The position numbers and the translations under genes are program-made. Positions 1 to 20,174 of a stretch of DNA of 20,174 nucleotides are shown here, in pieces. Where the stretch lies: the IMG/VR virus record IMGVR_UViG_3300033154_000077, positions 1 through 20,174 of that record; one strand, written 5' to 3'. This DNA comes from a virus. Each line of letters opens with the position of its first letter. Positions within the stretch are counted from its first letter, which is position 1. Below the pieces are notes generated by a model, which saw only the letters and a program-made list of their open reading frames with translations, had not been told where the DNA came from and made no database searches.

Positions 1-532
1 TGTCCTCGCAAACTTCGCACTGGAACACCAGGGACTGGGCGAACTCGTTCACGCCACCCGGTGGAGTAGCGGTCTTGTCGCAGCTTCCGTCTGGGCCGAA
101 GGACAGCTGGGGCGCGCTCCCGCTATAAAGATCAATGCAGGTAGACGTGACGGTGTAGATCACCTGGGTGTCTTCCGCGTTGTCGAAGTCGTAGATGTCC
201 GCCCTTATAGGGGTGCTCTGCGTCGTCCAGTTTGAGGCCGCGTCGGCGTCGCAGAGGTTGTCGCCGAGCTCCGTCACGAGGGTGTCGTCGTAGTCGCACT
301 TCTCGTCGCGGCATGGGTAGCTGGTCGAGCACGACGTCTGCACCGGGCTTCCCGTGTTGTACACGTCCGTGCAATCCACCCGCTGCGGCGCGTCACGAAC
401 GCCCGACGTCGCGTCGCTGTCGCAGAGGTCGTCAGGGAAGCCGCTGCACTGGGCATCGTTTCCGCAGGTTGATACTGGTCCCTTCGGGTTGTCGTAGATG
501 TCTACGCAGTGTTGCTGGTAGAGGTCCGAACA
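1..532 (-). repeat. Coding Cys-rich repeats in the left-edge protein
   Basis: Residues 541 to the edge contain degenerate repeats, each opening with Cys-x-Asp-aliphatic-Tyr. Units start at residues 549 (nt 508), 594 (nt 373) and 672 (nt 139), with a short half unit at 541. The first two full units share the order C-x-D-x-Y, a PV(S/Q)T segment, two further Cys, then LCD(S/A)DA(T/A)S. The third is cut by the window edge. Unit lengths are unequal (about 45 and 78 residues), so this is a protein repeat rather than a clean DNA tandem repeat. Such spacing suggests disulfide-bonded modules, consistent with the signal peptide. Confidence 0.6.
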
Positions 533-2152
533 CTTCCACGAGAAGAACACGACACCGTCGGTCACCGCCGGGCTTACGTCGTCTTCCTCAAACCACTCCG
601 CCAGGCCGAGCGCGAGGAACCCGCGCAAGCTGATGTCGTCCGCGTTCATCGTCCCGTAAAGTCGGGGGTTGTCCTGTGCAGCGTTGAGCTGTTGGTAACT
701 CTGGTCGCGCTTGATGGGCGGGCTGATAAGCCGAGGCGCCCGAGGATCCATTCCCATCCACACGGTCAATTCGTCGGCGCCGATCTCCATGTTTCTCGAG
801 CCGCAATCCAGGCCCCCCGATGTACACAGGAAGGTGAGCTTTGGGGACTGGCTCTCGACGTAGAATATCTTCCCTCTCGGGACGGGGACGCCGGTCCCGT
901 TGTCGAACCCTGAGATCACCAGCCCGTTGGTGGTGCTCGTCTCCCAGTAGGTGCTGCCCCTGACGTCGGGCACCGGGAGATCGATGTCCAGGAACGTCTC
1001 CGTCGTGGCGCCGTCGTCGATCTGGAACTCGCCGCCGATGACCAGGTCGTCGAGCCCCATGCTCCCCGTGTAGCCGGCGATGGCGGCGCCGACTTCCGCG
1101 TCGAAGTCGATGTGGTCGACGGCCGGGTCGTCGTCGGGGGTGAAGTTGTCGCCTCCAGGTGCGGTGTCCGAGGTGTGGTCGTGCGAATCGTTTACAACGT
1201 CGCCATCGATGTCGAGGTCGTTCGCGTTGTCGAAGTCGATGATCTCGCCAGCCGCGTCGAGGTCGTGTGCGTTCGAGAAGTCCTCGATCAGACCAGCGAT
1301 GTCACCGTAGGCGGCGTAACGCTTTGTCCCGAAAGAGTTCCCGCCGCAGTACGACAGCGGCTCGGCGTCGTTGACAGCCATCCGCCCTGATACGCCAGGG
1401 AAGCAACCGAGCACACCGACACCGAGATCCTCGATAAACCCAGCCTCGTCGCTCTTGGTGTCGACAAACCCACCGACGACCTCGAGGCCGGTGCGGATGT
1501 CGCCCTCGGTGACGATGTCAGCGGGGACTGGCGGGACCGTGTCAGAGGTGTGGTCGTGAGAGTCGGCGACGATCTCGGGGTCCATCCAGGTAGACCCTGG
1601 GCCAGCGAGATCTCCGCCAGGGGTCGCGCCGGCCAGAACCTCGGCGGTGAGCTGGGGGTTGTTGACGTCGGTCGCGAGGATGTACTCGGCATCGAGCGGG
1701 GAGGGCTCACCCTGGTATGTGTACACCCATTCCGAACCGTTGTAGGTCTTGTTCTCGATCCGGTTGCACTGGAAAGTGATCGTCCCGCCACTCTCGGGTG
1801 TCAATACCCGGAAGCTCACGAACCCTCTGGTGAACTGTGCCTTGTGCGGTTCGGCGTCGGAGATGCTCAGGATCTCTTTGCAGTCGCTGCCCACGCCCCC
1901 GTAGTTGTTGTAGCAGTCGTTGACCGCAACGGTCGGGCTGGCGGCTACGGGAGTGATCGTGATCGTGGAAGACGTGTAGCAACCCGTGATGTCCTGATGC
2001 GGTGGCGCGGACTCGAGCGGCGACGCTCCGAACGCGTAAGAGAACGCCTGGTCGTAGTCGGCGTGGACAAACGCGATAGGATCCGCATCCACCCACTGCG
2101 CGCTGGCGGGAAAGGCGAGGAGCAGCCCAGCCAGCAGTGCCAGCCGCTTCAT
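1..2152 (-). CDS. Secreted-looking Cys-rich fibre-locus protein, runs off the left edge
   Basis: I read one uninterrupted minus-strand frame from the ATG at 2152-2150 to the window edge, 717 codons with no stop, so the 3' end is missing. The stop of the upstream collar gene overlaps this start by one base (TGATG). Residues 1-18 look like a Sec signal peptide: Lys-Arg at 2-3, hydrophobic run 4-14, then Ala-Ser-Ala before Gln19. Two near-identical DSHDHTSDT segments lie at residues 197-205 and 322-330, of a kind common in phage tail-fibre stalks. The C-terminal part from residue 541 is Cys-rich, with C-x-D-(L/I/V)-Y at 541, 549, 594 and 672 and LCD(S/A)DA at 576-581 and 633-638. Position after a collar fibre suggests a fibre or surface protein, but an export signal is odd for a virion protein assembled in the cytoplasm. 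No specific family is recognised. The open frame is certain; the function is not. Confidence 0.85.
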   Translation of the reverse strand, partial: MKRLALLAGLLLAFPASAQWVDADPIAFVHADYDQAFSYAFGASPLESAPPHQDITGCYTSSTITITPVAASPTVAVNDCYNNYGGVGSDCKEILSISDAEPHKAQFTRGFVSFRVLTPESGGTITFQCNRIENKTYNGSEWVYTYQGEPSPLDAEYILATDVNNPQLTAEVLAGATPGGDLAGPGSTWMDPEIVADSHDHTSDTVPPVPADIVTEGDIRTGLEVVGGFVDTKSDEAGFIEDLGVGVLGCFPGVSGRMAVNDAEPLSYCGGNSFGTKRYAAYGDIAGLIEDFSNAHDLDAAGEIIDFDNANDLDIDGDVVNDSHDHTSDTAPGGDNFTPDDDPAVDHIDFDAEVGAAIAGYTGSMGLDDLVIGGEFQIDDGATTETFLDIDLPVPDVRGSTYWETSTTNGLVISGFDNGTGVPVPRGKIFYVESQSPKLTFLCTSGGLDCGSRNMEIGADELTVWMGMDPRAPRLISPPIKRDQSYQQLNAAQDNPRLYGTMNADDISLRGFLALGLAEWFEEDDVSPAVTDGVVFFSWKCSDLYQQHCVDIYDNPKGPVSTCGNDAQCSGFPDDLCDSDATSGVRDAPQRVDCTDVYNTGSPVQTSCSTSYPCRDEKCDYDDTLVTELGDNLCDADAASNWTTQSTPIRADIYDFDNAEDTQVIYTVTSTCIDLYSGSAPQLSFGPDGSCDKTATPPGGVNEFAQSLVFQCEVCED
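1163..1189 (-). repeat. His-rich nonapeptide repeat, second copy
   Basis: This encodes residues 322-330 (Asp-Ser-His-Asp-His-Thr-Ser-Asp-Thr), the same nine residues as nt 1538-1564. The DNA differs at several bases while the protein is unchanged, so selection on the peptide or an older duplication is likelier than a recent copy. Short HxHT segments of this kind are common in trimeric phage fibre stalks. Confidence 0.7.
1538..1564 (-). repeat. His-rich nonapeptide repeat, first copy
   Basis: This encodes residues 197-205 of the left-edge protein, identical in sequence to residues 322-330 encoded at 1163-1189. The two copies are 125 residues apart and each is followed by a Pro/Gly-rich stretch and then an Asp-rich stretch, suggesting two repeated stalk segments. 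Confidence 0.7.
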
Positions 2153-3213
2153 CACAGGACACCCGAGTAGATGAGGTAGCCCGAGACGATCGAGGCCTGC
2201 CGGTTCTCGTGACCGTCACCGAGACCAGAGTTCGAGATCGTGTGAGTGTGGTTCCCTTCGGTGCCGATGGGGGCGCTCTGGGTAGAGCTGGGGCTGTCGT
2301 TAGCTCCCTCCTTCAGGGTCGTCGGGTCTCCGCCTCCGGTGTTGTGCGTCCTGACCGTATGGTCATGGGCGCCGTCGCCCCCGGTGGCTCCGCCATGGTT
2401 GTGCTGCGGCCCTTCGTCCTCGGTGAGCACATGCTTCTTCTCGCCGACCCAGGTGTCGTTGTTGTCCCCCGTGATGAAGTTGTAGTCGCCATCGGGCTCT
2501 TCGTCGTCGGGGTGCGCCGCGTCCCAGAAGCCCACCGGCACGCGACCAGCAAAGTCCGGCACTCGGAAGTAGTTGTTTGTTGGGGCTCCGAGGCTCGGGT
2601 GCTCGTCGTAATAGCCGTCGCCTGCCCCGGTTGCACCCATCGCAGCTGCCAGCGCGGGGTAGCTGGCGACCAGGTACTCGTCCCCGTCGCACTGGAGCCA
2701 TCCGTTGATCGCTGCCGCGGACTGGAGCGTGGCGGTCATTTTCAGGTCGCCGACCGCGGGCTGCGGAGCGAAAGCGCCGGGGTCGATGCTCTTCGCGAAG
2801 TAGACATCGGCGCCATCGTCGACGAATGTCAGCGGCACGTTAGTACCGATGATGGTCACGATTGTGTCGGACGCACTGTAGTTCACAGAGAGAACGTGCG
2901 ACTCCACATACGGAGGCCCGCCACCAGGTCGCATCCGAACGCGTCGCCCTACGGTGAAGTAGGCAGTCGCGTCGCAGTCCTCGACGCGGAACGAGCTCGC
3001 GTCGATCTTTGAGACCGTCTTCGGCCCGCGCACTGTGAGGTCTCGAGTGATCGAGAGCCACTCGGGATCGTCGTACCAAGTGCGGACCACCGTCATCACT
3101 TCGCGGCCCCACTCGTTGACGTCCGCCCCTTTCCAGCCGACCTCGGCTCCGTCCGGTACCGGGAACCCGTTGGTCGCCGGGGTCACCGACCACTCTTCAA
3201 GAAGGATCGTCAT
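2152..3213 (-). CDS. Tail-collar domain fibre protein
   Basis: A 353-residue protein, likely a distal tail fibre or collar that contacts the host surface. Residues 25-60 contain DVNEWGREVM and WYDDPEW, resembling the N-terminal attachment part of many podovirus fibres, followed by a beta-rich region to about 150. Residues 154-230 match the phage tail-collar pattern: GDLKMTATL, GWLQCDGDEY, then YFRVPDFAGRVPVG. The C-terminal part has three His-x-His motifs (271-273, 283-285, 322-324), which in T4 gp12-type tips bind metal along the trimer axis; metal binding here is inferred. The end (GHENRQASIVSGYLIYSG) fits the usual collar-protein terminus. The ATG shares one base with the preceding TGA, so it is translationally coupled. 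Family assignment is confident; receptor unknown. Confidence 0.88.
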   Translation of the reverse strand: MTILLEEWSVTPATNGFPVPDGAEVGWKGADVNEWGREVMTVVRTWYDDPEWLSITRDLTVRGPKTVSKIDASSFRVEDCDATAYFTVGRRVRMRPGGGPPYVESHVLSVNYSASDTIVTIIGTNVPLTFVDDGADVYFAKSIDPGAFAPQPAVGDLKMTATLQSAAAINGWLQCDGDEYLVASYPALAAAMGATGAGDGYYDEHPSLGAPTNNYFRVPDFAGRVPVGFWDAAHPDDEEPDGDYNFITGDNNDTWVGEKKHVLTEDEGPQHNHGGATGGDGAHDHTVRTHNTGGGDPTTLKEGANDSPSSTQSAPIGTEGNHTHTISNSGLGDGHENRQASIVSGYLIYSGVL

Positions 3214-10568: not shown

Positions 10569-10900
10569 CAGGCGACCTCCCGAATGCCCTCGAACCAGAT
10601 GCCGTCCATGTCTTGGATCGTCACGTCGAACCGGATCCACTGGGCAGACAGACGGACGGCGACCGCAATTTGCGCGTTGCTCCCAACCGTCCACACGTAC
10701 TGGTCAGCGTCGTCCTGGTCGAAGTAGGTATGCCAGTTGGTCCCGTCTGGCGACACCTCCATCGCTACTACCGCGCCGCTTACGGCGGCTCGGTCCAGGT
10801 AGACGATCCCCTTGGTGAACTCGGAAACCTCGAGTGCGTCCGACTGGTTGCCGGCTGCTACCGCTCCGAACGCGTGTATGCTGTGTCTGCGATTCGGCAT
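10568..10900 (-). CDS. Small capsid-adjacent paralogue (110 aa)
   Basis: A 110-residue beta-rich protein. I place the start at the ATG at 10900 because GGGAGG lies nine bases upstream; a TTG at 10909 would leave no spacing. It shares its first residues (MPNRRHxI), the SEFTKGI segment, a SPDGTNWHTYF motif and the ending EGIREVA with the 179-residue protein next to it, so these are tandem paralogues. Location just after the capsid gene suggests a capsid decoration, head fibre or other virion accessory role; that is inference. The ending is coupled to the next gene by TGATG. Confidence 0.75.
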   Translation of the reverse strand: MPNRRHSIHAFGAVAAGNQSDALEVSEFTKGIVYLDRAAVSGAVVAMEVSPDGTNWHTYFDQDDADQYVWTVGSNAQIAVAVRLSAQWIRFDVTIQDMDGIWFEGIREVA

Positions 10901-10901
10901 G

Positions 10902-11441
10902 TTAGGCAACCTCCCTGATGCCTTCGATGTACACGTAATTGCAATCCGCCGTGTCTACGAGCATCCTGACGTGCTTTGGCAAGATCTCGATCTGGTACGA
11001 CTCGAGCGCCGTAGTGAGCGTGTATCTGCCCCTGACGCCATTTGGCCGATACAGGATGAACCATGAGACGCCACCGTTAGGCGAGCAGAACACCTCGACG
11101 CGCGTCCCTATCCCGCTGATGTGAAGGATCCCTTTCGTGAACTCGGACAGGTGAATCTCCGGCGTGAGTGTTTGGACGACCGTCCCGGTTTCCGTCGCAA
11201 CCCAGGTGTCTGTGAAGTCGAAGGTGTTCGGTCCGGTAGCCGTGACCAACCTGTTCGAGCCGTTGTAGTTCGTCGTCCCGCTGATCGTGACTCTTCCGCC
11301 AGTGCTGATCGTGTGGCCAGCTACGGTGGCTCTGACATCACCGGCTGCTCCGCCGAGTAGGCTTGCATCGGCGAATGCAGTGATCGAGTCGGTAAGCGTG
11401 GTCGCGCCCAGGAACTTGATCCCGTGTCTTCGATTCGGCAT
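10902..11441 (-). CDS. Capsid-adjacent paralogue with inserted FCCH-like domain (179 aa)
   Basis: A 179-residue protein started at the ATG at 11441, which has GAGGGGAG upstream; the longer in-frame extension to 11594 overlaps the capsid gene and is not credible. Residues about 35-90 (HTISTGGRVTISGTTNYN, then NTFDFTDTWVATETG) fit the beta-barrel pattern that profile searches on phage proteins often label as ubiquitin-activating E1 FCCH-like; no ubiquitin function is implied. The flanks match the 110-residue neighbour: MPNRRHxI at the start, SEFTKGI at 99-105, a SPNGGVSWF motif at 120-128 and EGIREVA at the end. It is probably a virion surface protein. The domain name is from memory of the motif; the paralogy is directly visible. 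Confidence 0.78.
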   Translation of the reverse strand: MPNRRHGIKFLGATTLTDSITAFADASLLGGAAGDVRATVAGHTISTGGRVTISGTTNYNGSNRLVTATGPNTFDFTDTWVATETGTVVQTLTPEIHLSEFTKGILHISGIGTRVEVFCSPNGGVSWFILYRPNGVRGRYTLTTALESYQIEILPKHVRMLVDTADCNYVYIEGIREVA

Positions 11442-11533: not shown

Positions 11534-12526
11534 CTATCCCTTCAGGTCGTAGACCGCGCCGTGTGCGAGCTCGTTGCACATCTCGAGCGTCCACTCGACC
11601 AGCATCTCGCGCTTGATCGAGTCGCCGACCTTGGCGAGATCGAACTGCTGCCAGGGCCGCAGATACGCCATCTTCATGTACTCGGGATCGAGTGCGAAGA
11701 CGATCGAGTCGAGCGTCGGCGATGCGGCGAGCGGGTAGATGTGCCGCGAGGGCACAACCCGGAGCTCACCGAAGTTGCTGACGTAGAGATCGACCGTGGC
11801 GTAGATCGTGCGCGCCGCCCTGTCCGAACGAGTGACACCGGAGGCGCCCACCGTCCCGACACCGTCCATCAGCGAGATGTTCGTCTTCTGCGTCGGACCG
11901 ACCAGCAGCACCGAGGGCTTCGCGCCCGCGGCCCATGCCAGCTGGATCACGCTGTCGACCATCCCCTGGGTGATCGTGCGTCCCGTGCCGTCCACTCGGA
12001 CGGTGGTGACACCGCTCGAGTACCCACCACCGGAGCCCACCGTGCTGATGTTCGTCTTGATCCAGGTCATCAGCGCCCCGGACTGTCGCGGTGTGTCCGC
12101 GTCCGTGACCTGAGCCTGGCTCGGCTGGTTCAGCCCCGTCATCGCGAAGTCGACGTCCTTCTTCAGCTCCCGCGCGGCCTTTGCAGCCTGGTACGCGAGC
12201 TCCGAGTCACGACCGTACTTCTCGGTGACTTCGAGCGTCCCCGTGACGTTGAACAGCTTGATCGAGATCTGCGTGTAGTTCTGCAGCAACGTGGTGGCGC
12301 CGACCGCGACATCCGTCGCGTCCTCGCCTTCGTTGTGAGCATTGGCAGCCGGATCTTCGAGAGCATCCGTCTGCCACTGGTGAAGCGTGCTGCCGGAAGA
12401 CGTCGTCCCAATCATGCTCAGGAGCGGAGTCTCCGTCGGGCTGATGTTGTGAATCAGATCGGAAACGTCTTCACGTTGTCCGTTCGCCTCGAGACTGTCG
12501 TAGAGATTGGCCGGAATGCCTGCCAT
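11534..12526 (-). CDS. Major capsid protein (SU10/DUF5309-type, HK97 fold)
   Basis: A 330-residue protein that matches the DUF5309/SU10-type capsid family: REDVSDLIHNISPTETPLLS at 18-37, HQWQTDALEDPAANAHNEGE about 49-68, then LLQNYTQISIKLFNVTGTLE, ELAYQAAKAARELKKDVDFA, and near the end SNFGELRVVPSRHIYPLAA and LRPWQQFDLAKVGDSIKREM. These proteins have the HK97 fold and form the icosahedral shell. It follows the scaffold gene, as expected. The ATG has GAGG in the preceding stop region (GTATGAGG), so coupling is likely. Size and segment order are normal for the family. Confidence 0.93.
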   Translation of the reverse strand: MAGIPANLYDSLEANGQREDVSDLIHNISPTETPLLSMIGTTSSGSTLHQWQTDALEDPAANAHNEGEDATDVAVGATTLLQNYTQISIKLFNVTGTLEVTEKYGRDSELAYQAAKAARELKKDVDFAMTGLNQPSQAQVTDADTPRQSGALMTWIKTNISTVGSGGGYSSGVTTVRVDGTGRTITQGMVDSVIQLAWAAGAKPSVLLVGPTQKTNISLMDGVGTVGASGVTRSDRAARTIYATVDLYVSNFGELRVVPSRHIYPLAASPTLDSIVFALDPEYMKMAYLRPWQQFDLAKVGDSIKREMLVEWTLEMCNELAHGAVYDLKG

Positions 12527-12538
12527 TTGAGAAAGACC

Positions 12539-13690
12539 TCATACGCGGCTCGCCCCAGCTGAAGCTCTGGACCTCTTCGCCCGTTCCTTCGCGAGGAACA
12601 CCGCTGCTGCGGCATCGCGAGAGTCCGGATGCTTCTCGAGGTTCGCCATTGCGACATCGACCTCTGACCGTTGCGTCTCCCCGGTATCGCGTGGCGATCC
12701 GGAACGTACTGGTCTCGGTTTCTTTGCCAGTGCTCTGCGGACTGCAGGTGCGGTCTTCCGTGTCGCCTTGTCGTATTCCTGTGCTTTCCACACAAGAGTG
12801 ACGTAGCGGTGGTCGTCGACCTGATCCCACTCCTCCGGACTGAGACCACCCCCGTCCGAAGCCAACGCGTAGCGACTGAGAGCGTCGTACTCTCTGTCGA
12901 AATTCTTCTTGAATCGCGGAACCTTGGCCGCGAGCGCCTCGCGCTCTGCAGGTACCCGAGCGGCCCGCTGCTCGTCGACTCTGCGAGCGGCCTCGGCCTC
13001 GGCGTTCTGCCTGAGCTGCGTGGCCTGGGCGATCGCGCCCTGCTTGCGCCGCATGTCTTCCATGCGCGCGGCGTACTCGCCGGGGTCGACAGCGCGCAGC
13101 TTCTCCATCTCCTGGGTGCTCGGGAGCACGCTCTGAAGGTGTGCCTGGAGCTCCGTAGCGAGTGCGGCATTCTGGGCCACCTGCTTCTCGAACGCCTGGT
13201 AGGCGCCGCCGACCTTGTCTTCGAACAGCCGGCGCTGCTCGCCGAGCTCCGTCGTCTTGGCCGTGTAGTCCTGCTGCCGCATGTAGCCTTCTTGGAGGTC
13301 CTGAAAGCTGACCTCGACGTCGTTCGGCAGCGTGATTCTGGCCTCGAGAGGGATTTCCAGGTCCTGGGGATCGCCCTGTGGCTCCGCCTGGCCAGGATCA
13401 GCCTGCGGCTCGGGTGCTTGGGCGTCCGGGTCGGCGTTCGGCTCTCCTGAGGGATCCTCGTCGGCCTTCTTGGGCTCGGGCTCGCCGTCGGCCTCTACGA
13501 GCTCGTCGAGCGACGTTTCCAGGGTCGTCGGCTCTCGCTGGGGCTCGGCGTCCGGATCCAGGGCCGGAAGGCCCGCAGCCGCGCGCACCTTGGCCTTGCG
13601 CGCCTGCTCCATGTCGAAAAAGGCTTTCGCGGCTTCGTCAACGCCTGCTGTAGGACTGTTTTGGCTCTCGAACGCGGGATCGGGCGGCAT
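12539..13690 (-). CDS. Capsid scaffolding protein
   Basis: A 383-residue, highly charged protein directly before the capsid gene, the normal place for a podovirus scaffold. Residues about 45-112 are Asp/Glu/Pro-rich. Then comes the motif ITLPNDVEVSFQDLQEGYMR (119-138) followed by RQQDYTAKTTELGEQRR, a signature of this scaffold type. Residues about 155-280 are Ala/Gln/Arg-rich coiled coil, and the basic C-terminal end would bind the coat protein. I start at the ATG at 13690 because GGAAAGG is five bases upstream; a GTG at 13696 leaves no spacing. The ribosome-binding site lies in a perfect hairpin, so its translation may be restrained. It is removed or released after assembly in the family. 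Confidence 0.86.
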   Translation of the reverse strand: MPPDPAFESQNSPTAGVDEAAKAFFDMEQARKAKVRAAAGLPALDPDAEPQREPTTLETSLDELVEADGEPEPKKADEDPSGEPNADPDAQAPEPQADPGQAEPQGDPQDLEIPLEARITLPNDVEVSFQDLQEGYMRQQDYTAKTTELGEQRRLFEDKVGGAYQAFEKQVAQNAALATELQAHLQSVLPSTQEMEKLRAVDPGEYAARMEDMRRKQGAIAQATQLRQNAEAEAARRVDEQRAARVPAEREALAAKVPRFKKNFDREYDALSRYALASDGGGLSPEEWDQVDDHRYVTLVWKAQEYDKATRKTAPAVRRALAKKPRPVRSGSPRDTGETQRSEVDVAMANLEKHPDSRDAAAAVFLAKERAKRSRASAGASRV

Positions 13691-13695
13691 ATTCA

Positions 13696-13713
13696 CCTTT
13701 CCGGGGGGAAAGG
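13696..13713 (-). promoter_or_regulatory. Hairpin covering the scaffold ribosome-binding site
   Basis: On the minus strand the sequence CCTTTCC, CCCC, GGAAAGG forms a perfect seven-base-pair stem with a four-base loop. The 3' arm is the predicted ribosome-binding site of the scaffold gene, five bases before its ATG. When folded, this would hide the site; ribosomes arriving from the upstream gene, which stops about 50 bases earlier, do not reach it. Sequence is visible; the regulatory role is inferred. Confidence 0.55.
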
Positions 13714-13742
13714 GAACGATTCGAGCCTAGTTTGCCTATTTT

Positions 13743-14096
13743 TCAGCCATCCGCAACTTTTTGTTGCGATTCGACGTACTTGGCACGCTCTTCTCTGGCC
13801 GTATTGAGGTACTCGACCACCGATTCGCGCCTCTTCCTGCGTTCGCTGAGCTTGTCGTGTTTTGCGACCAGCTGGTCCGTGGCGTTGCGCCCCAGAGTGA
13901 TCACGGCCAGCAGATAGGCCACAAACTCCTCCACCGCATGCGCTCGAAGCCGGGCGTTCCAGGCCTCATCGGCGTTGGTGGCTCCATGGAAGCTCTGCAG
14001 GGCCCACTCCTGCGTCGCGCCGATCGCGTCCTGCAGGATCGGGTTCTTCGAGACCGCGATGGCCTCCGCGCCGCGCTGTTCCGGTGTCCTGGGCAT
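13743..14096 (-). CDS. Small conserved-looking protein between portal and scaffold (117 aa)
   Basis: A 117-residue, mainly helical protein: NPILQDAIGATQEWALQSF, ADEAWNARLRAHAVEEFVAY, a short hydrophobic run AYLLAVITLG (residues about 59-68) and a charged tail KLSERRKRRESVVEYLNTAR. Similar small proteins often lie beside the portal in temperate and metagenomic podoviruses, but I do not know a name. It starts by the TGATG overlap with the portal stop, so it is coupled to it. It might be a packaging or scaffold accessory; no enzyme motif is present. Confidence 0.75.
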   Translation of the reverse strand: MPRTPEQRGAEAIAVSKNPILQDAIGATQEWALQSFHGATNADEAWNARLRAHAVEEFVAYLLAVITLGRNATDQLVAKHDKLSERRKRRESVVEYLNTAREERAKYVESQQKVADG

Positions 14097-16363
14097 CAGG
14101 CGAGACCTCCCGCTTGCGGTTGAGCCGGCGGCGGACCCTGCGGTGTCGCCGGAGGCGGCTCGATCGAGTTGGCCGTGGCGCCGGGCGGCGTGATGTGCCA
14201 GCCGAGATCGACGAGGGCCTGGTAGCCCTCGGCGCGGATCTTCTGGATGTCGACCTCGTGGCTGAGCTCTGTCTTCTTGATCTCGAGCATCAGCTTGTCG
14301 CGATCGAGCTCCACCTTCTGGCGCTCGAGCTCCACCCGCATGTACTCGACCTCGGCCGCGGCCTTCACGGCCTCCTCGGTCGGATCAGGCTTGGGCTCGG
14401 GCGGATCCACCGTCGACGGGTCGGTGAAGTACTGCTCCGGCGATCGGAACCCGAGGGCCTCGACCAGGTCGGAGACCGTGTTGAAGAAATTGCTGTCCGA
14501 GACCATGTGCGTGAAGCCCATCTCGGCAATCGCCTTCTGCACCTCGGCGATGGTCTGCAGGTTCATCGACTTCTCCATCTTCGAACCGTGGCCCAGCCCC
14601 ACCGTCACCTGGCAGTCGACTTCGGTCGCCCAGGCGGTCGGGTCGACGTGGACGTACTCGCCGCGCACCCGGATCATCATGCCGCGCGTGTCGTGCTGCA
14701 TGAGCAGCATGTAGATCTTCTCGAACAGGTGCTTTACCCCGGTGTCGGCGAAGATCCGCGCGTAGAGCGTGATCCTGGTCGCCGCCGCCGAACTCTGCAC
14801 CATCGTCCCGTAGACGTGCTTGCTGATCGAGTCCGGGTTGATGCCCATCGCCTCGGGCGAGATTCCGGTACGCGCCTCGCGCATCTTCAGGTGCGCGTCG
14901 AACGCCGGCAGGATGTCCGCGGCGTTGCTCTTCTGCTCGTAGGGTCGCAGCGCGTTCGGCTCGTACTCCTCGATATAGCCGCCGGCCGCAGCATCGAGCA
15001 GCTGCGTGAGGTTGACCATCGGCGTCGACGCGTCGGCCTGGCCTCGAGAGAGCACGATGTTGCGCGGGTCAGTCGCAAGATAGAGGCAGTCGAGGAACTG
15101 ACGCCACAGTGTGGTGTTGATGTCCTGCAGGTCCTTCGTCGCATCGGCCAGAGAGAGGCCATGGAAACGGTGCGGGACCGGGATCGGCGTTACCGATACG
15201 AACGGATGCCCGTTCGCCGGCTCGGTGTGGAGAATGACTTGTGCGTAGTCCCCCCCGGTAACCACCTTCCACCATTCGCTCACGCCATCACCGTCCCGGT
15301 CCACTAGGACGTAACACTCGGAGATGTACACCGTTCTCTCGGAATCCTTCCGGTCTGCGAACACCAGCGGGAAAGAGTCGTCCTGGCTTGCGCGGATGAT
15401 CGAGTCCTGGTCGGTGCTGTAGACCGAGTGCGCGCTCGGAATCGACTTCACGATTTCCGGGTCGTAGCCCAGGCCGATCAGCTTGCTTTCGCTCGCGCGG
15501 ATCCGCTCGCCAACGAACCGACAGGTCGGGTCGTAGAGGCTTCGCGCGTCGCGGTTGATGATAAACTCCTCGGGCGGCACGTTCTCGAGTGCGATCTTGC
15601 CGGCGCGCTTGTATCGCACGCCCTCGATGTCGTACCGGACCCGCATCGGGTCATGGTTCTCGGGAAGCATGCTCTCTTCGTCGAGGACCTCGCGCTCGCC
15701 CGTCTTCTGGTTGATGTGCCACGCCTCGACGGCGCGGATCTCGTAGTCTTCGTCGTCGAAGATGGCCTGCAGCTCGATGAGCGGCTTGCCCTCGTAGTTC
15801 TCGAAGGTGACCGCGCTCGAGTCCTCGAACCAGACCTTCACGATGCCGTTTTTCTGTATCAGCGCGTCCTTGAACATGGTGTAGAGCACCATGAAGCCGT
15901 CTTCGCGGCCGAACACATGGTTGACCATCTCGGTGGCCTGCTCGGCTGACTGGATGTCGTCATCGTTTTTCGGAACGAACCGCACGACGCGCGGCCCGCT
16001 GCAGAAGATCTCCATCAGGCTCGGAAGCAGCCACTCCACCTGCTCGAAGATGTCGCGCGTGACCACCTGGCTGCGGCCTTCGCGCTCGTCGCCTCGAGGA
16101 TTGCCGAAGTACTGCGCCATCGAACTGCGACGCGTCTCGGCCAGGCGAGTGCCTGTCCACCCCAATCCAGAGTCGATCTCGCGCTGGACGATTCCGAGCA
16201 GCTGGCGCTCGTCGATCACAAACTCGTCGCCGGCACCCTCCTGCGGCTGCCTGTCTTCGGGGAAGTCCTCTGATGTCGGGAGCTCTTCGAACCCGTCGAC
16301 CGAAGGGAACACCGCGCCTTGTTCTTCGTCGGGATCTTGCCCGCCCACTCGATAGTCGTCCAT
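14096..16363 (-). CDS. Portal protein (P22-type)
   Basis: A 755-residue protein that builds the dodecameric vertex for DNA packaging and exit. It has the P22-type features QVVTRDIFEQVEWLLPSLME (99-118), VRFVPKNDDDIQSAEQATEM (127-146) and VFGREDGFMVLYTMFKDALI (150-169), followed by KNGIVKVWFE. Residues about 671-720 are a long charged coiled coil, consistent with the barrel seen in P22 portal, then a Pro/Gln-rich end. It follows the terminase by 13 bases with GAGGGGG nine bases before the ATG. The long acidic N-terminal extension (1-50) is not part of the conserved core. Length is at the upper end of the family. Confidence 0.92.
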   Translation of the reverse strand: MDDYRVGGQDPDEEQGAVFPSVDGFEELPTSEDFPEDRQPQEGAGDEFVIDERQLLGIVQREIDSGLGWTGTRLAETRRSSMAQYFGNPRGDEREGRSQVVTRDIFEQVEWLLPSLMEIFCSGPRVVRFVPKNDDDIQSAEQATEMVNHVFGREDGFMVLYTMFKDALIQKNGIVKVWFEDSSAVTFENYEGKPLIELQAIFDDEDYEIRAVEAWHINQKTGEREVLDEESMLPENHDPMRVRYDIEGVRYKRAGKIALENVPPEEFIINRDARSLYDPTCRFVGERIRASESKLIGLGYDPEIVKSIPSAHSVYSTDQDSIIRASQDDSFPLVFADRKDSERTVYISECYVLVDRDGDGVSEWWKVVTGGDYAQVILHTEPANGHPFVSVTPIPVPHRFHGLSLADATKDLQDINTTLWRQFLDCLYLATDPRNIVLSRGQADASTPMVNLTQLLDAAAGGYIEEYEPNALRPYEQKSNAADILPAFDAHLKMREARTGISPEAMGINPDSISKHVYGTMVQSSAAATRITLYARIFADTGVKHLFEKIYMLLMQHDTRGMMIRVRGEYVHVDPTAWATEVDCQVTVGLGHGSKMEKSMNLQTIAEVQKAIAEMGFTHMVSDSNFFNTVSDLVEALGFRSPEQYFTDPSTVDPPEPKPDPTEEAVKAAAEVEYMRVELERQKVELDRDKLMLEIKKTELSHEVDIQKIRAEGYQALVDLGWHITPPGATANSIEPPPATPQGPPPAQPQAGGLA

Positions 16364-17360: not shown

Positions 17361-17707
17361 CAGGATGTGTGGCGCGTGAAAGCCCTGAAAGCGCGACTCG
17401 TCCCTGCGCGATGTATCTCACCCCAGAGCACGCCCTTCACCTGACGTTCTGTCGGCGCCGTCGTGATGACCTTTGCTCCGGGGTGACACGAGCCGAACCA
17501 CAAAGAGATCCGCCCGGCCGTCCACGACTTCCCGCTCGAGTGGCACGAGGGAACCGCCGTCACGCGGTTGTCGCGCACCGACTCCATGATCGCCACCTGC
17601 GTGTTCCACGGGTCGTCGCCGAGGACCTCGCTCACGAAGAACTCGGGGTCCTTCTGGCAGCGGCCGTAGATGACGGCGGCGTCTCTTTGCGAGAGCGAGA
17701 GGCTCAC
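17321..17707 (-). CDS. terL: Large terminase, N-terminal fragment (broken gene)
   Basis: A 128-codon reading from the GTG at 17707 (GTGA overlap with the upstream gene). It carries VTAVPSCHSSGKSWTAGR, a Walker A-like site around residues 54-61, and KVITTAPTERQVKGVLWGEI, both typical of phage terminase ATPase domains. True similarity ends at about residue 101; the last 27 residues are out-of-frame readings of the sequence that encodes FQGFHAPHILVVVDEASG in the next fragment. Family members usually have roughly 40 more residues here, so the two fragments cannot be joined by a simple one-base correction. The lesion is about nt 17390-17425. It is either an inactivating deletion or an assembly fault. 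Confidence 0.88.
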   Translation of the reverse strand: MSLSLSQRDAAVIYGRCQKDPEFFVSEVLGDDPWNTQVAIMESVRDNRVTAVPSCHSSGKSWTAGRISLWFGSCHPGAKVITTAPTERQVKGVLWGEIHRAGTSRAFRAFTRHTSWWWSTRPPASARH

Positions 17708-18024
17708 TCGGATGGCCCCTCCGCAAGGCCGCGCTCGAAGCCGGCAGCGAATGCGGCGCGCGACTCCTTCTCGGCGTTCTCTTGGAGCATGCGCCGAAAG
17801 CGGAGCTCCTCTCGAGCACCGGACAGGTTCGCGAGAAGCTCCGCGGTCCCGAGCTCACCGTACTTCGGATAGCGGTACCGATGCCAAAGTCGGCGCCCCC
17901 AGCCGATGAACAGGTGGAACGGGATCGGCGCGAAGTAGATCTCCGCCTTGTAGAACGAACGCCAGGCGAGCCCGTAGCCACGGGGCGCGCAGCCGCCTTC
18001 CTCCACTGCCTCGATGAATTTCAC
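17704..18024 (-). CDS. Small protein before terminase (106 aa), possible small-terminase position
   Basis: A 106-residue protein starting at GTG (GTGA overlap with the upstream gene) and overlapping the terminase start by four bases. Residues 29-43 (IYFAPIPFHLFIGWG) are hydrophobic, followed by Arg/Tyr-rich WGRRLWHRYRYPKY, then an amphipathic helix LRFRRMLQENAEKESRAAFA (about 74-93). Small terminase usually sits here, but I see no helix-turn-helix and the hydrophobic stretch is unlike it, so I do not assign it. Tight coupling to terminase suggests a related packaging role or merely operon packing. Confidence 0.72.
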   Translation of the reverse strand: MKFIEAVEEGGCAPRGYGLAWRSFYKAEIYFAPIPFHLFIGWGRRLWHRYRYPKYGELGTAELLANLSGAREELRFRRMLQENAEKESRAAFAAGFERGLAEGPSE

Positions 18025-18257
18025 GACGTCTTCTTCGCGACCGCCGTCTTCTTTTTCACCGGAGCCTTGGACTCGCCAGCGGGCTGACCGCCACCAGGCG
18101 GACCACCAGCGGGCGGACCATCAGCGGGCGGCTTCGCCTTCTTCGGCGGGTCGCACTGAGCTCTGAGCAGCTCAACCTGCTGCCACTGCGCCTGCGTGCT
18201 GGCCTTGCTATGGAGAATCGCCCTGGTCTTCGAGCCGACCTCTGCGTCTGTGAGCAT
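18021..18257 (-). CDS. Pro/Gly-rich small protein with basic tail (78 aa)
   Basis: A 78-residue protein: helical, polar first 35 residues (MLTDAEVGSK, STQAQWQQVELLRAQC), then low-complexity PPKKAKPPADGPPAGGPPGG, ending in KAPVKKKTAVAKKTS, a Lys/Ala-rich tail like that of DNA-binding histone-like peptides. DNA binding is inferred from composition only. The ATG has GTAGGTG upstream. It overlaps the next gene by four bases. The DNA of the Pro/Gly part (about 18066-18135) has short GGCGGACCA-like repeats, prone to slippage. No family is recognised. Confidence 0.68.
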   Translation of the reverse strand: MLTDAEVGSKTRAILHSKASTQAQWQQVELLRAQCDPPKKAKPPADGPPAGGPPGGGQPAGESKAPVKKKTAVAKKTS

Positions 18258-18264
18258 GACGCAC

Positions 18265-18486
18265 CTACCGACGCTGCGGATCGCGTTGCCGCGCGCCGCT
18301 CATCTGCTTGGGCATCTTGCCCAGCCCGTCGACCTTCAACGGTGTGTGAGTGATCGGGTTCGACTTCATGTTCTGCGGCATCTTCGACCGCGGAATGTCT
18401 ACCCGAGCCACCTCTCCGCCGTTGGGGTGCGGCTCTTTCCGCACCCTTCCGCCCGGCTGCTCTGCTCTGCCACTACCTTGTCGCAT
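18265..18486 (-). CDS. Small basic protein (73 aa)
   Basis: A 73-residue Arg/Lys/Pro-rich protein with no hydrophobic segment. ATG at 18486 has a strong GAGGGGGGG upstream, which supports that it is translated. It ends seven bases before the next gene's ATG. Composition and size give no function; it may be a disordered virion or packaging peptide. Coding status rests on spacing and ribosome-binding site rather than homology. Confidence 0.58.
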   Translation of the reverse strand: MRQGSGRAEQPGGRVRKEPHPNGGEVARVDIPRSKMPQNMKSNPITHTPLKVDGLGKMPKQMSGARQRDPQRR

Positions 18487-18525
18487 GGTGTCACCCCCCC
18501 TCTATGAAACCATTGCGCGAGACTC

Positions 18526-18810
18526 CTACGTCAGCAACCCCCGCGTTACGATCATTTCAAACTCGACATCAAGGCGCTGCCGGTTCTCACCCAGCCAGCC
18601 CTCGTCGTGTTCCTCAACGAGCTCCTGCTCCCACTCGCGCTTCAGGTTGCGGAGCGTCGTGGGCGTCGGATCCACATCCGAGACGTCGGTCACATAGTCC
18701 CAGTTGATGATCACGTCGCCGTTCTCGCCCCGGCGCCAGGGCATTTCTGCATCGCTCAGCAGCGGCAGATCGTGCCCGAACTCGGGATTTAGCGACTTGG
18801 ATTTGCTCAC
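18526..18810 (-). CDS. Small hypothetical protein (94 aa)
   Basis: A 94-residue acidic protein starting at GTG (18810), overlapping the previous TGA by four bases. It contains WRRGENGDVIINWDYVTDVS (about 25-44) and a charged helix LRNLKREWEQELVEEHDEGW. No signal, membrane segment or known motif is visible. The coupling to the GNAT-ended gene and a normal position in the operon support it as real. Function unknown. Confidence 0.68.
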   Translation of the reverse strand: MSKSKSLNPEFGHDLPLLSDAEMPWRRGENGDVIINWDYVTDVSDVDPTPTTLRNLKREWEQELVEEHDEGWLGENRQRLDVEFEMIVTRGLLT

Positions 18811-19301
18811 TTTCTCAGTCCTCCGGCCTTCTTGCGCTTCCGAGGCTTCCGAACAACAGCCTCCTTAGCGTCCCCCATAGGGCCAGTGTACTCCATGTTG
18901 ACCACATCGGGTTGGCCGAACCGATCATAGTTCCAGTCCTCTGGCGCGTAGGCGTCGTCCCAGCCCATCCGGGAGGTCTCTTCGAAGCCGTTCTTTCGAT
19001 AGAGCTTCACCAGAAAGCCGTCATAGGCGTCCAGGGTCTTCCCTCCCTGGGCCTTAGCGTGTGAGAGTATCTTCGTCCCGGCGCCGCGCCTTCTTGAGGT
19101 GTTGAAGGCGTGCCTGACGTCCCCGTCGCGGGTGATCGCGTAGCCGATCTTCGAGTCGTGGCTCAGGAAGGTCAGGGCCTGGTTGTCCATCAGCGCATCG
19201 GTGGTGGTGGGCGCCAGGAACCCGCCGTACTTGCCGGTCCTCGCGGCCTCGAGCGCACCAACGAAGTCCTGGTGCGGGGCTGAGCTCACGAGGTACTCCA
19301 T
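18807..19301 (-). CDS. C-terminal GNAT-like fragment of a broken gene
   Basis: The real coding part of this frame runs from the 35-bp duplication to the TGA at 18807. I give 19301 as the first ATG after the break; a longer in-frame reading to 19517 is an out-of-frame shadow of the upstream fragment. The segment has TDALMDNQALTFLSHDSKIG, GAGTKILSHAKAQGGKTLDA, YDGFLVKLYRKNGFEETSRM and WDDAYAPEDWNYDRFGQPDV, a pattern I recognise from GNAT-like domains in long phage proteins, with the Tyr-x-x-x-Gly-Phe signature typical of GNAT motif B. The basic end (VVRKPRKRKKAGGLRK) may bind nucleic acid. Removing one duplicate joins it in frame to the next fragment. Confidence 0.78.
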   Translation of the reverse strand: MEYLVSSAPHQDFVGALEAARTGKYGGFLAPTTTDALMDNQALTFLSHDSKIGYAITRDGDVRHAFNTSRRRGAGTKILSHAKAQGGKTLDAYDGFLVKLYRKNGFEETSRMGWDDAYAPEDWNYDRFGQPDVVNMEYTGPMGDAKEAVVRKPRKRKKAGGLRK

Positions 19302-19340
19302 CGATGGTGCGGGGCTGAGCTCACGAGGTACTCCATCGAG
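19271..19340 (-). repeat. 35-bp tandem duplication breaking the gene
   Basis: Two copies of a 35-bp unit lie end to end at 19271-19305 and 19306-19340, identical except for the last base (t versus g). Since 35 is not a multiple of three, the second copy shifts the frame and creates a stop at 19286-19288. With one copy removed the reading continues cleanly as PDSMEYLVSSAPHQDFVGAL. The near-perfect identity means it is very recent or an assembly product. Confidence 0.95.
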
Positions 19341-20174
19341 TCGGGAATCTGCGGCATCCGCATCGCGCCGGCCGGGAGCTCGCCGCGGGCCCACCGGCTG
19401 AAGAACTCCGAGTCGGACAGCCCCATGCGCTGGGCAGCCTTGCCGATCTCGTCGTTGAAGATGTCCATCAGGCCTCGAGGATCTCGGATCCCGGTCTGCT
19501 CGGCGCCGCCAACCCACTGCGCCGCCATCGACTGGATCGGCTCCATGTCGTACTCGGGCCCGAGGATCTCCTGGTGCATCTTCTCGATCGAGCGCCGCTG
19601 GTAGGCGTTCGGCTTCTTGGTGTCAAAGAACTGCGTACCCATGTGCATGTCGGGCGGGGTGTTCTGGTAGTTGCCCGATGCGCCCTCGCTCATCCGCCTG
19701 GTCTTGAACTGCGACACCGGATCGAGCGCCTCGAGCACGTTGCCGCCGACGCGCTCCGCCTCTTCGATTCGCCTGAGCCCCGGCAGCATGCCGCCGTAGT
19801 AGCGCGGGTGTCCCATCAGCTTCCACGGGGCCGAGTTCGAGGGGTCCAGGCTGGAGATCGGGATCCCGGCGTTGGCGCCGTGCTGCGCGAACAAGGTCCT
19901 GGCGATCTCTTCCGGCACTGTCGACCCGCTCGACGTTGGGCCGAGCCGTGCGGCTGTTCCCTTGAACCGCAGCCCGCCGAGCTCTTCGCCGAGCTCGTCA
20001 ACCAGGCCCTCACGGAACGGTGTCAGGTTGAACCACTCCTCGCCTTCCGGAATTGCTCGATCGATGTTCTCGCGCGCCATCGGCAGTCGGCTCTCGGCCT
20101 GGGCGTCGGCTGCCTCCTGCGCGATGCGCTGGTTCTCGGGCAGCGTGCGCCCGGTCTCTCGTGCGATGCGCGAC
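19286..20174 (-). CDS. Long phage protein, N-terminal part, partial at right edge
   Basis: The frame is open through the right edge, 31 codons beyond the first visible ATG at 20080, so the true start is probably outside. Visible residues include ARETGRTLPENQRIAQEAAD before that ATG, then WFNLTPFREGLVDELGEELG, PWKLMGHPRYYGGMLPGL, PPDMHMGTQFFDTKKPNAYQ and MEPIQSMAAQWVGGAEQTGI. These are like parts of long multidomain phage proteins carried near the packaging genes, but I cannot name the domain. It ends prematurely at 19286 because of the 35-bp duplication; the intact form would continue into the GNAT-like part at 18807-19301. The last few residues of this fragment (HRWSTS) are out-of-frame. Confidence 0.75.
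   Translation of the reverse strand, partial: SRIARETGRTLPENQRIAQEAADAQAESRLPMARENIDRAIPEGEEWFNLTPFREGLVDELGEELGGLRFKGTAARLGPTSSGSTVPEEIARTLFAQHGANAGIPISSLDPSNSAPWKLMGHPRYYGGMLPGLRRIEEAERVGGNVLEALDPVSQFKTRRMSEGASGNYQNTPPDMHMGTQFFDTKKPNAYQRRSIEKMHQEILGPEYDMEPIQSMAAQWVGGAEQTGIRDPRGLMDIFNDEIGKAAQRMGLSDSEFFSRWARGELPAGAMRMPQIPDSMEYLVSSAPHHRWSTS

Follow-up and report, generated by a model that had tools for sequence, protein, structure and literature searches.

A predicted Sec-exported, Cys-rich fibre-like protein encoded behind the collar fibre of uncultured phages

Gene and protein layout

The window, meaning the whole stretch of 20,174 nucleotides analysed here, is a complete IMG/VR record with its genes on the minus strand. 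The phage encodes an SU10-type portal (Pfam, E 1e-167) as well as a major head protein and virion proteins. A second assembly, IMGVR_UViG_3300033153_007667 (41.5 kb), was 99.9% identical to the window over 17.4 kb; the two were assembled separately and represent near-identical phages. They disagreed at the right end of the window (17391-20174), where they were offset by about 80 bases at both 17.4 kb and 19.3 kb and shared just 96% identity over 19386-20174, reflecting either a population variant or an assembly difference. Behind the major head protein, two related small proteins are encoded side by side (10571-10909 and 10905-11441); they are probably decoration or head proteins and have likely counterparts in the contigs L008 and L009.

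The gene under study occupies positions 1..2152 (minus strand). Directly upstream of it lies a collar fibre gene (2152..3213, minus strand), which was assigned by PF07484 and several PHROG tail and tail-fibre families. The frame (2..2152) was open to the window edge, with 717 codons counted from the ATG at 2152 and a GTG one codon upstream. The preliminary description had given at least 717 codons running off the edge and had proposed a leftward extension to find the stop. The frame is open because the contig ends there; the longer contig completes it (L002:6001-9969) as a protein of 1323 aa, designated P0001.

The protein starts with a predicted Sec signal peptide (residues 1-18, positions 2099..2152, minus strand), followed by a conserved N-terminal beta domain (residues 19-148, 1709..2098, minus strand) supported by alignment A7 and by AlphaFold2. 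The AlphaFold2 model of this N-domain, built from four sequences, had a mean pLDDT of 74.6 and was nearly all beta. Fold searches returned generic jelly-roll matches only (TM about 0.4-0.5; best PDB TM-score about 0.4), and thus no fold family is claimed. Neither a descent of the N-domain from these phages' own small decoration proteins (A6) nor its equivalence to the exported 154-aa protein of the contigs L010 and L012 (A5) was supported by hhalign, and both ideas were rejected.

Behind the N-domain lies a poorly conserved, fibre-like body (residues 149-540, 533..1708, minus strand). In the orthologue P0002, body residues 204-295 match tail-fibre families, and a unit at about 387-480 of the window protein is shared with the phage encoding that orthologue, phage B. 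The Cys-rich part (residues 541-717, 2..532, minus strand) continues beyond the window to about residue 751. Further along, residues 824-956 showed a weak match to phrog_16509 (unknown function, E 0.0024) and, by eye, possibly resemble a C1q/TNF-like module, although this call is weak. A Pro/Thr linker of about 185 residues (about 966-1152) and an end domain of 170 residues with four Cys complete P0001. An AlphaFold2 model of residues 1-965 from two sequences was unusable (pLDDT 28), and PDB sequence searches with the whole protein, the N-domain, the C1q-like part and the end domain gave nothing significant.

The motif Cys-x-Asp-x-Tyr occurs five times in P0001 (residues 541, 549, 594, 672 and 715) against 0.08 expected from composition, which bears out the Cys-rich repeats noticed at the visible end of the frame; four copies lie wholly inside the window. 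P0001 contains 28 Cys. The Cys content was about 2-3.6% in the exported fibre-like proteins and mostly 0-1.1% in the other virion-cassette proteins of the window phage, with 1.9% in one 160-residue reading. The repeat corresponded to no Pfam or NCBIfam family and had no informative PHROG match. It occurs twice in P0002, and phage B, the sole relative with comparable repeats, has it as part of a repeating fibre-body unit.

Orthologues and the conserved signal peptide

A search with the collar fibre identified three more distinct phages, namely phage B (contigs L016 and L017), L033 and L034. All four gene-bearing phages come from metagenomes and belong to an uncultured group of short-tailed phages. 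Collar-fibre identity to the window phage was 51-57% for phage B and 46-47% for L033 and L034, and the Collar domain was kept in the collar proteins of the three phages tested with Pfam. A relative of the protein is encoded directly behind the collar fibre in all four phages, where the collar stop and the gene start overlap by 4 (ATGA, in the window), 1, 0 and 1 nt. The junction frames differ between phages; therefore, the signal peptide is not an internal part of a frameshifted fusion with the collar fibre, and this candidate was rejected.

The first 150 or so residues of the other three proteins aligned with the window protein at 31-44% identity, and four Cys of the N-domain (58, 80, 91 and 129) were invariant in the four phages. 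Behind the N-domain the proteins diverge; the window protein and that of phage B still shared 27% identity over the repeat and paired-Cys region. A conserved head with a variable tail is the pattern of fibres. The phage B protein, P0002 (1404 aa), matched phrog_972 (T4-type proximal tail fibre; residues 214-272, E 5e-7) and phrog_910 (tail collar fibre; residues 204-252, E 2e-6), and by tblastn it also matched gp34 of Aeromonas phages. No significant tail-fibre family match was obtained for P0001 or the L033 and L034 proteins. In tblastn searches of GenBank phages, P0001 had no match and the L034 N-domain no significant one. Two pattern-based scans of 84,980 genomes detected no bacterial relative, and distant ones could escape such scans.

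The preliminary description had proposed a Sec-type signal peptide with ASA before Gln19, and this proposal was borne out. The N-terminus of the window protein, MKRLALLAGLLLAFPASA/QWVD, has a basic n-region, a hydrophobic core of at least eight residues and an A-x-A motif before Gln19. Scored by a rule that looks for a basic n-region, an uncharged hydrophobic core and small residues at -3 and -1 (cut-off 4.2), this protein obtained 5.17; among 50,000 codon-shuffled N-termini, just 26 came up to the cut-off. The same rule fired on 10 of 582 ORFs in ten named phages, which were taken from portal search matches and are mostly relatives by the SU10 portal; none of the ten ORFs was a recognised fibre gene. 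The N-termini of the other three phages' proteins are MRRLLLLAAILFALPASA/QPW, MRKLLLLLASILLLPAISSG/QPW and MRKVLLFLALILLLPGISSG/QPW, so that the small residues at -3 and -1 and the Gln at +1 are kept in all four phages. Over the 19 codons of the signal and Gln, the window and phage B showed five synonymous and six amino-acid differences, indicating a retained protein sequence rather than recent copying. Conservation is a stronger argument for the signal than the rule-based score, and the predicted export of the fibre-like protein is well supported by sequence.

Neighbouring genes and known systems

In the longer contig, the P0001 gene is followed by a small protein with one hydrophobic stretch and then by an M15-type endolysin (phrog_465, E 9e-29), which is a separate gene. 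Phage B carries a protein similar to this endolysin behind its fibre-like gene. The endolysin gene of the window phage is followed by a putative lipoprotein and then by a second small exported Cys protein. The latter (L002:11321-11704; 127 aa, MRTLLLVAALLIAAPALA/Q) is coupled to a 93-aa protein with a possible lipobox, also behind the endolysin.

In phage B, a Pro/Thr linker is found on a separate exported protein of 352 aa, P0003. In L034, two more proteins with Pro/Thr linkers are encoded at 12197-15966, one of them with a Laminin_G_3 lectin-type domain; the C-terminal parts of this pair are 33% identical and resemble secreted lectins. P0003 and the L034 neighbours therefore suggest that one to three genes between the collar fibre and the lysis genes make up an exported adhesion module.

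More distant relatives, all lacking the gene, were also compared. In L036 a beta-helix is present on the collar protein itself, and a collar-type fibre of L039 (8992-10221) ends in a Pgp3 C-terminal domain (PF05475, E 3.9e-6). In L035, L037 and L038, neither a large exported protein behind the collar gene nor a recognised tip was found. These relatives are consistent with an exported protein taking over the role of the tip, in a small sample and with tip homology unproven.

Signal-peptide-like starts were also seen elsewhere. L012 (1793-5389) and its equivalents in L010 and L011, which are relatives of the window phage, have three to four consecutive genes with such starts between the major head protein and a head-completion gene. 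One gene of this type encodes a sulfatase (PF00884, E 1.6e-12), in which a CAATR stretch resembles the formylglycine motif. In the named uncultured podovirus L044 (MW202481), an exported Cys-rich protein annotated as 'transport protein tonB' (35869-36975) lies between structural and lysis genes.

T4-type gp34 and tail collar fibres are cytoplasmic and have neither a signal peptide nor Cys-rich repeats. The likeness to these fibres (phrog_972, phrog_910) consists of the P0002 match, the adjacency to the collar fibre and the conserved head with a variable distal part, whereas neither family was significantly matched by the window protein itself. As in tailed-phage fibres, the gene lies in the morphogenesis cassette beside the collar gene (four phages), but its conserved signal peptide departs from cytoplasmic synthesis without an export signal.

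By analogy of layout, the closest known system is the mosaic adhesive trimer (MAT) fibres of Bdellovibrio bacteriovorus (Caulton et al. 2024, PMC10769870). MAT proteins, which are themselves phage-fibre-like, have a signal peptide, a conserved beta domain of about 130 aa, a fibre and an adhesive tip (PMC10769870), and a similar arrangement is predicted here from sequence and AlphaFold2. The likeness drawn here is one of layout. MAT fibres are encoded by the bacterium and shown on its surface, whereas the present gene lies in a phage morphogenesis operon. MAT fibres have a trimeric beta-helical or beta-prism shaft, and their tips include S74, TNF-like, C-type lectin and beta-sandwich types; here there was no S74 or other Pfam match, and the phrog_16509 match was weak (E 0.0024). 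Signal peptides are also carried by other tailed-phage proteins, such as the endolysin Lys44 of fOg44, for which Sec export was shown (PMC6116005), and the esterase gp40 of PBR31 (PMC10975493), but these are lysis-linked enzymes without fibre architecture.

A literature search on signal peptides on tail fibres, with subscription papers mostly outside its reach, found no described exported fibre, and no earlier description of this type of exported phage fibre or adhesin was found. The protein would work, as we read it, in the manner of MAT fibres or of phage fibres, yet is filed as neither: its predicted export departs from the cytoplasmic synthesis usual for virion fibres, and its likeness to MAT fibres is drawn from layout.

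Predicted maturation and site of action

We conclude from these features that the protein is a Sec-exported phage fibre or adhesin, probably with disulfide bonds. Synteny with the collar fibre and the tail-fibre family matches in P0002 both speak for the putative fibre nature. The preliminary description had left a choice between a host-surface protein and an unusual exported fibre; the conserved signal, Cys residues, synteny and P0002 support export and a fibre nature, with virion and envelope both as candidate locations.

Our preferred explanation, held at a little under even confidence, is a modular fibre-type adhesin that has shifted to the secretory pathway and docks on virions at lysis. 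Late in infection, the protein would be translated together with the collar fibre, exported by Sec and cut before Gln19. It would fold, perhaps as a trimer, in an oxidising envelope compartment, in which paired Cys could form disulfides in the N-domain and the repeats. The variable C-terminal modules (Cys repeats, possible C1q/TNF-like module, Pro/Thr linker and end domain) may bind a surface glycan or another ligand, and the conserved N-domain would be the dock, most likely for the collar or tail of the virion. Cytoplasmic virions, freed by the endolysin whose gene lies a short way downstream, would then enter the space holding the exported fibres, allowing the two to join. The virion is preferred as the docking partner because the gene overlaps the collar fibre, tail-fibre sequence is present in P0002, and structural parts of phages are able to assemble when extracts are mixed, as known from in vitro complementation (PMC9576892).

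Rather more doubtful is the claim that the protein is a true virion fibre matured outside the cytoplasm, through Sec export and periplasmic oxidation, and attached only at lysis; the wording assumes a diderm host. If true, the fibre together with P0003-like and L034-like neighbours would form an entire adhesion module that is exported. Tailed phages normally make their virion fibres in the cytoplasm, and this usual route may count against docking on virions, as may the finding of only four phages and, in P0001, the lack of a significant tail-fibre match and the weakness of the C1q-like call. In addition, the collar fibre could plausibly serve as the receptor-binding tip, so that a second one is not required, and the long Pro/Thr linkers, P0003 and the L034 neighbours look like secreted proteins rather than virion parts.

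Close behind virion docking ranks a phage-made host-surface or extracellular adhesin, a tentative reading in which the protein leaves the cytoplasm late, stays on the envelope or is released, and is never a stoichiometric virion part. It could act in a MAT-like manner, as a decoy for receptors on debris, as a block to superinfection, or as a glue of virions and cells to polysaccharide. The signal peptide and paired Cys fit such an adhesin. It owes its rank just below virion docking to the Pro/Thr linkers, the exported lectin-like neighbours with signal-like N-termini and the same layout described for MAT proteins (PMC10769870). On the other hand, the gene either lies within and overlaps the morphogenesis operon or directly abuts it in four of four phages, so that late expression is expected and exclusion would then bring little benefit; the match of the P0002 body to tail-fibre families and the failure of the pattern-based genome scans to detect a bacterial relative also argue against it.

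It is unlikely that the hydrophobic N-terminus stays uncleaved and anchors a fibre that is otherwise cytoplasmic to the membrane or the virion. Cleavage was called from sequence rules only, which leaves room for an anchor, but the small -3/-1 residues with Gln at +1 in four phages, the four invariant Cys directly behind and the exported neighbours in the same operons speak for cleavage. An annotation artefact, whether a chance hydrophobic start or an assembly chimera at the single contig edge of the window, is highly improbable and is refuted by the orthologues, since independent assemblies and four diverged phages share the start, the signal and the domain.

Two further candidates were rejected. 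A superinfection-exclusion lipoprotein would be small with a lipobox Cys at +1, whereas this protein has 1323 aa, is cleaved at A/Q by prediction and has no Cys before residue 58. An exported (SP or SAR) endolysin does not fit, as no Pfam, PHROG or NCBIfam enzyme domain was found in the protein and the endolysin is the separate downstream gene.

The standard teaching is that tailed phages assemble entirely in the cytoplasm. An export signal conserved on a protein of the fibre locus implies either extracytoplasmic maturation with late docking or a phage-made, MAT-like surface adhesin, and either a late-docked virion part or such an adhesin would be new biology. Disulfides would lend fibres a stability beyond the reach of cytoplasmic folding, and screens for receptor-binding proteins that drop proteins with signal peptides would miss real ones.
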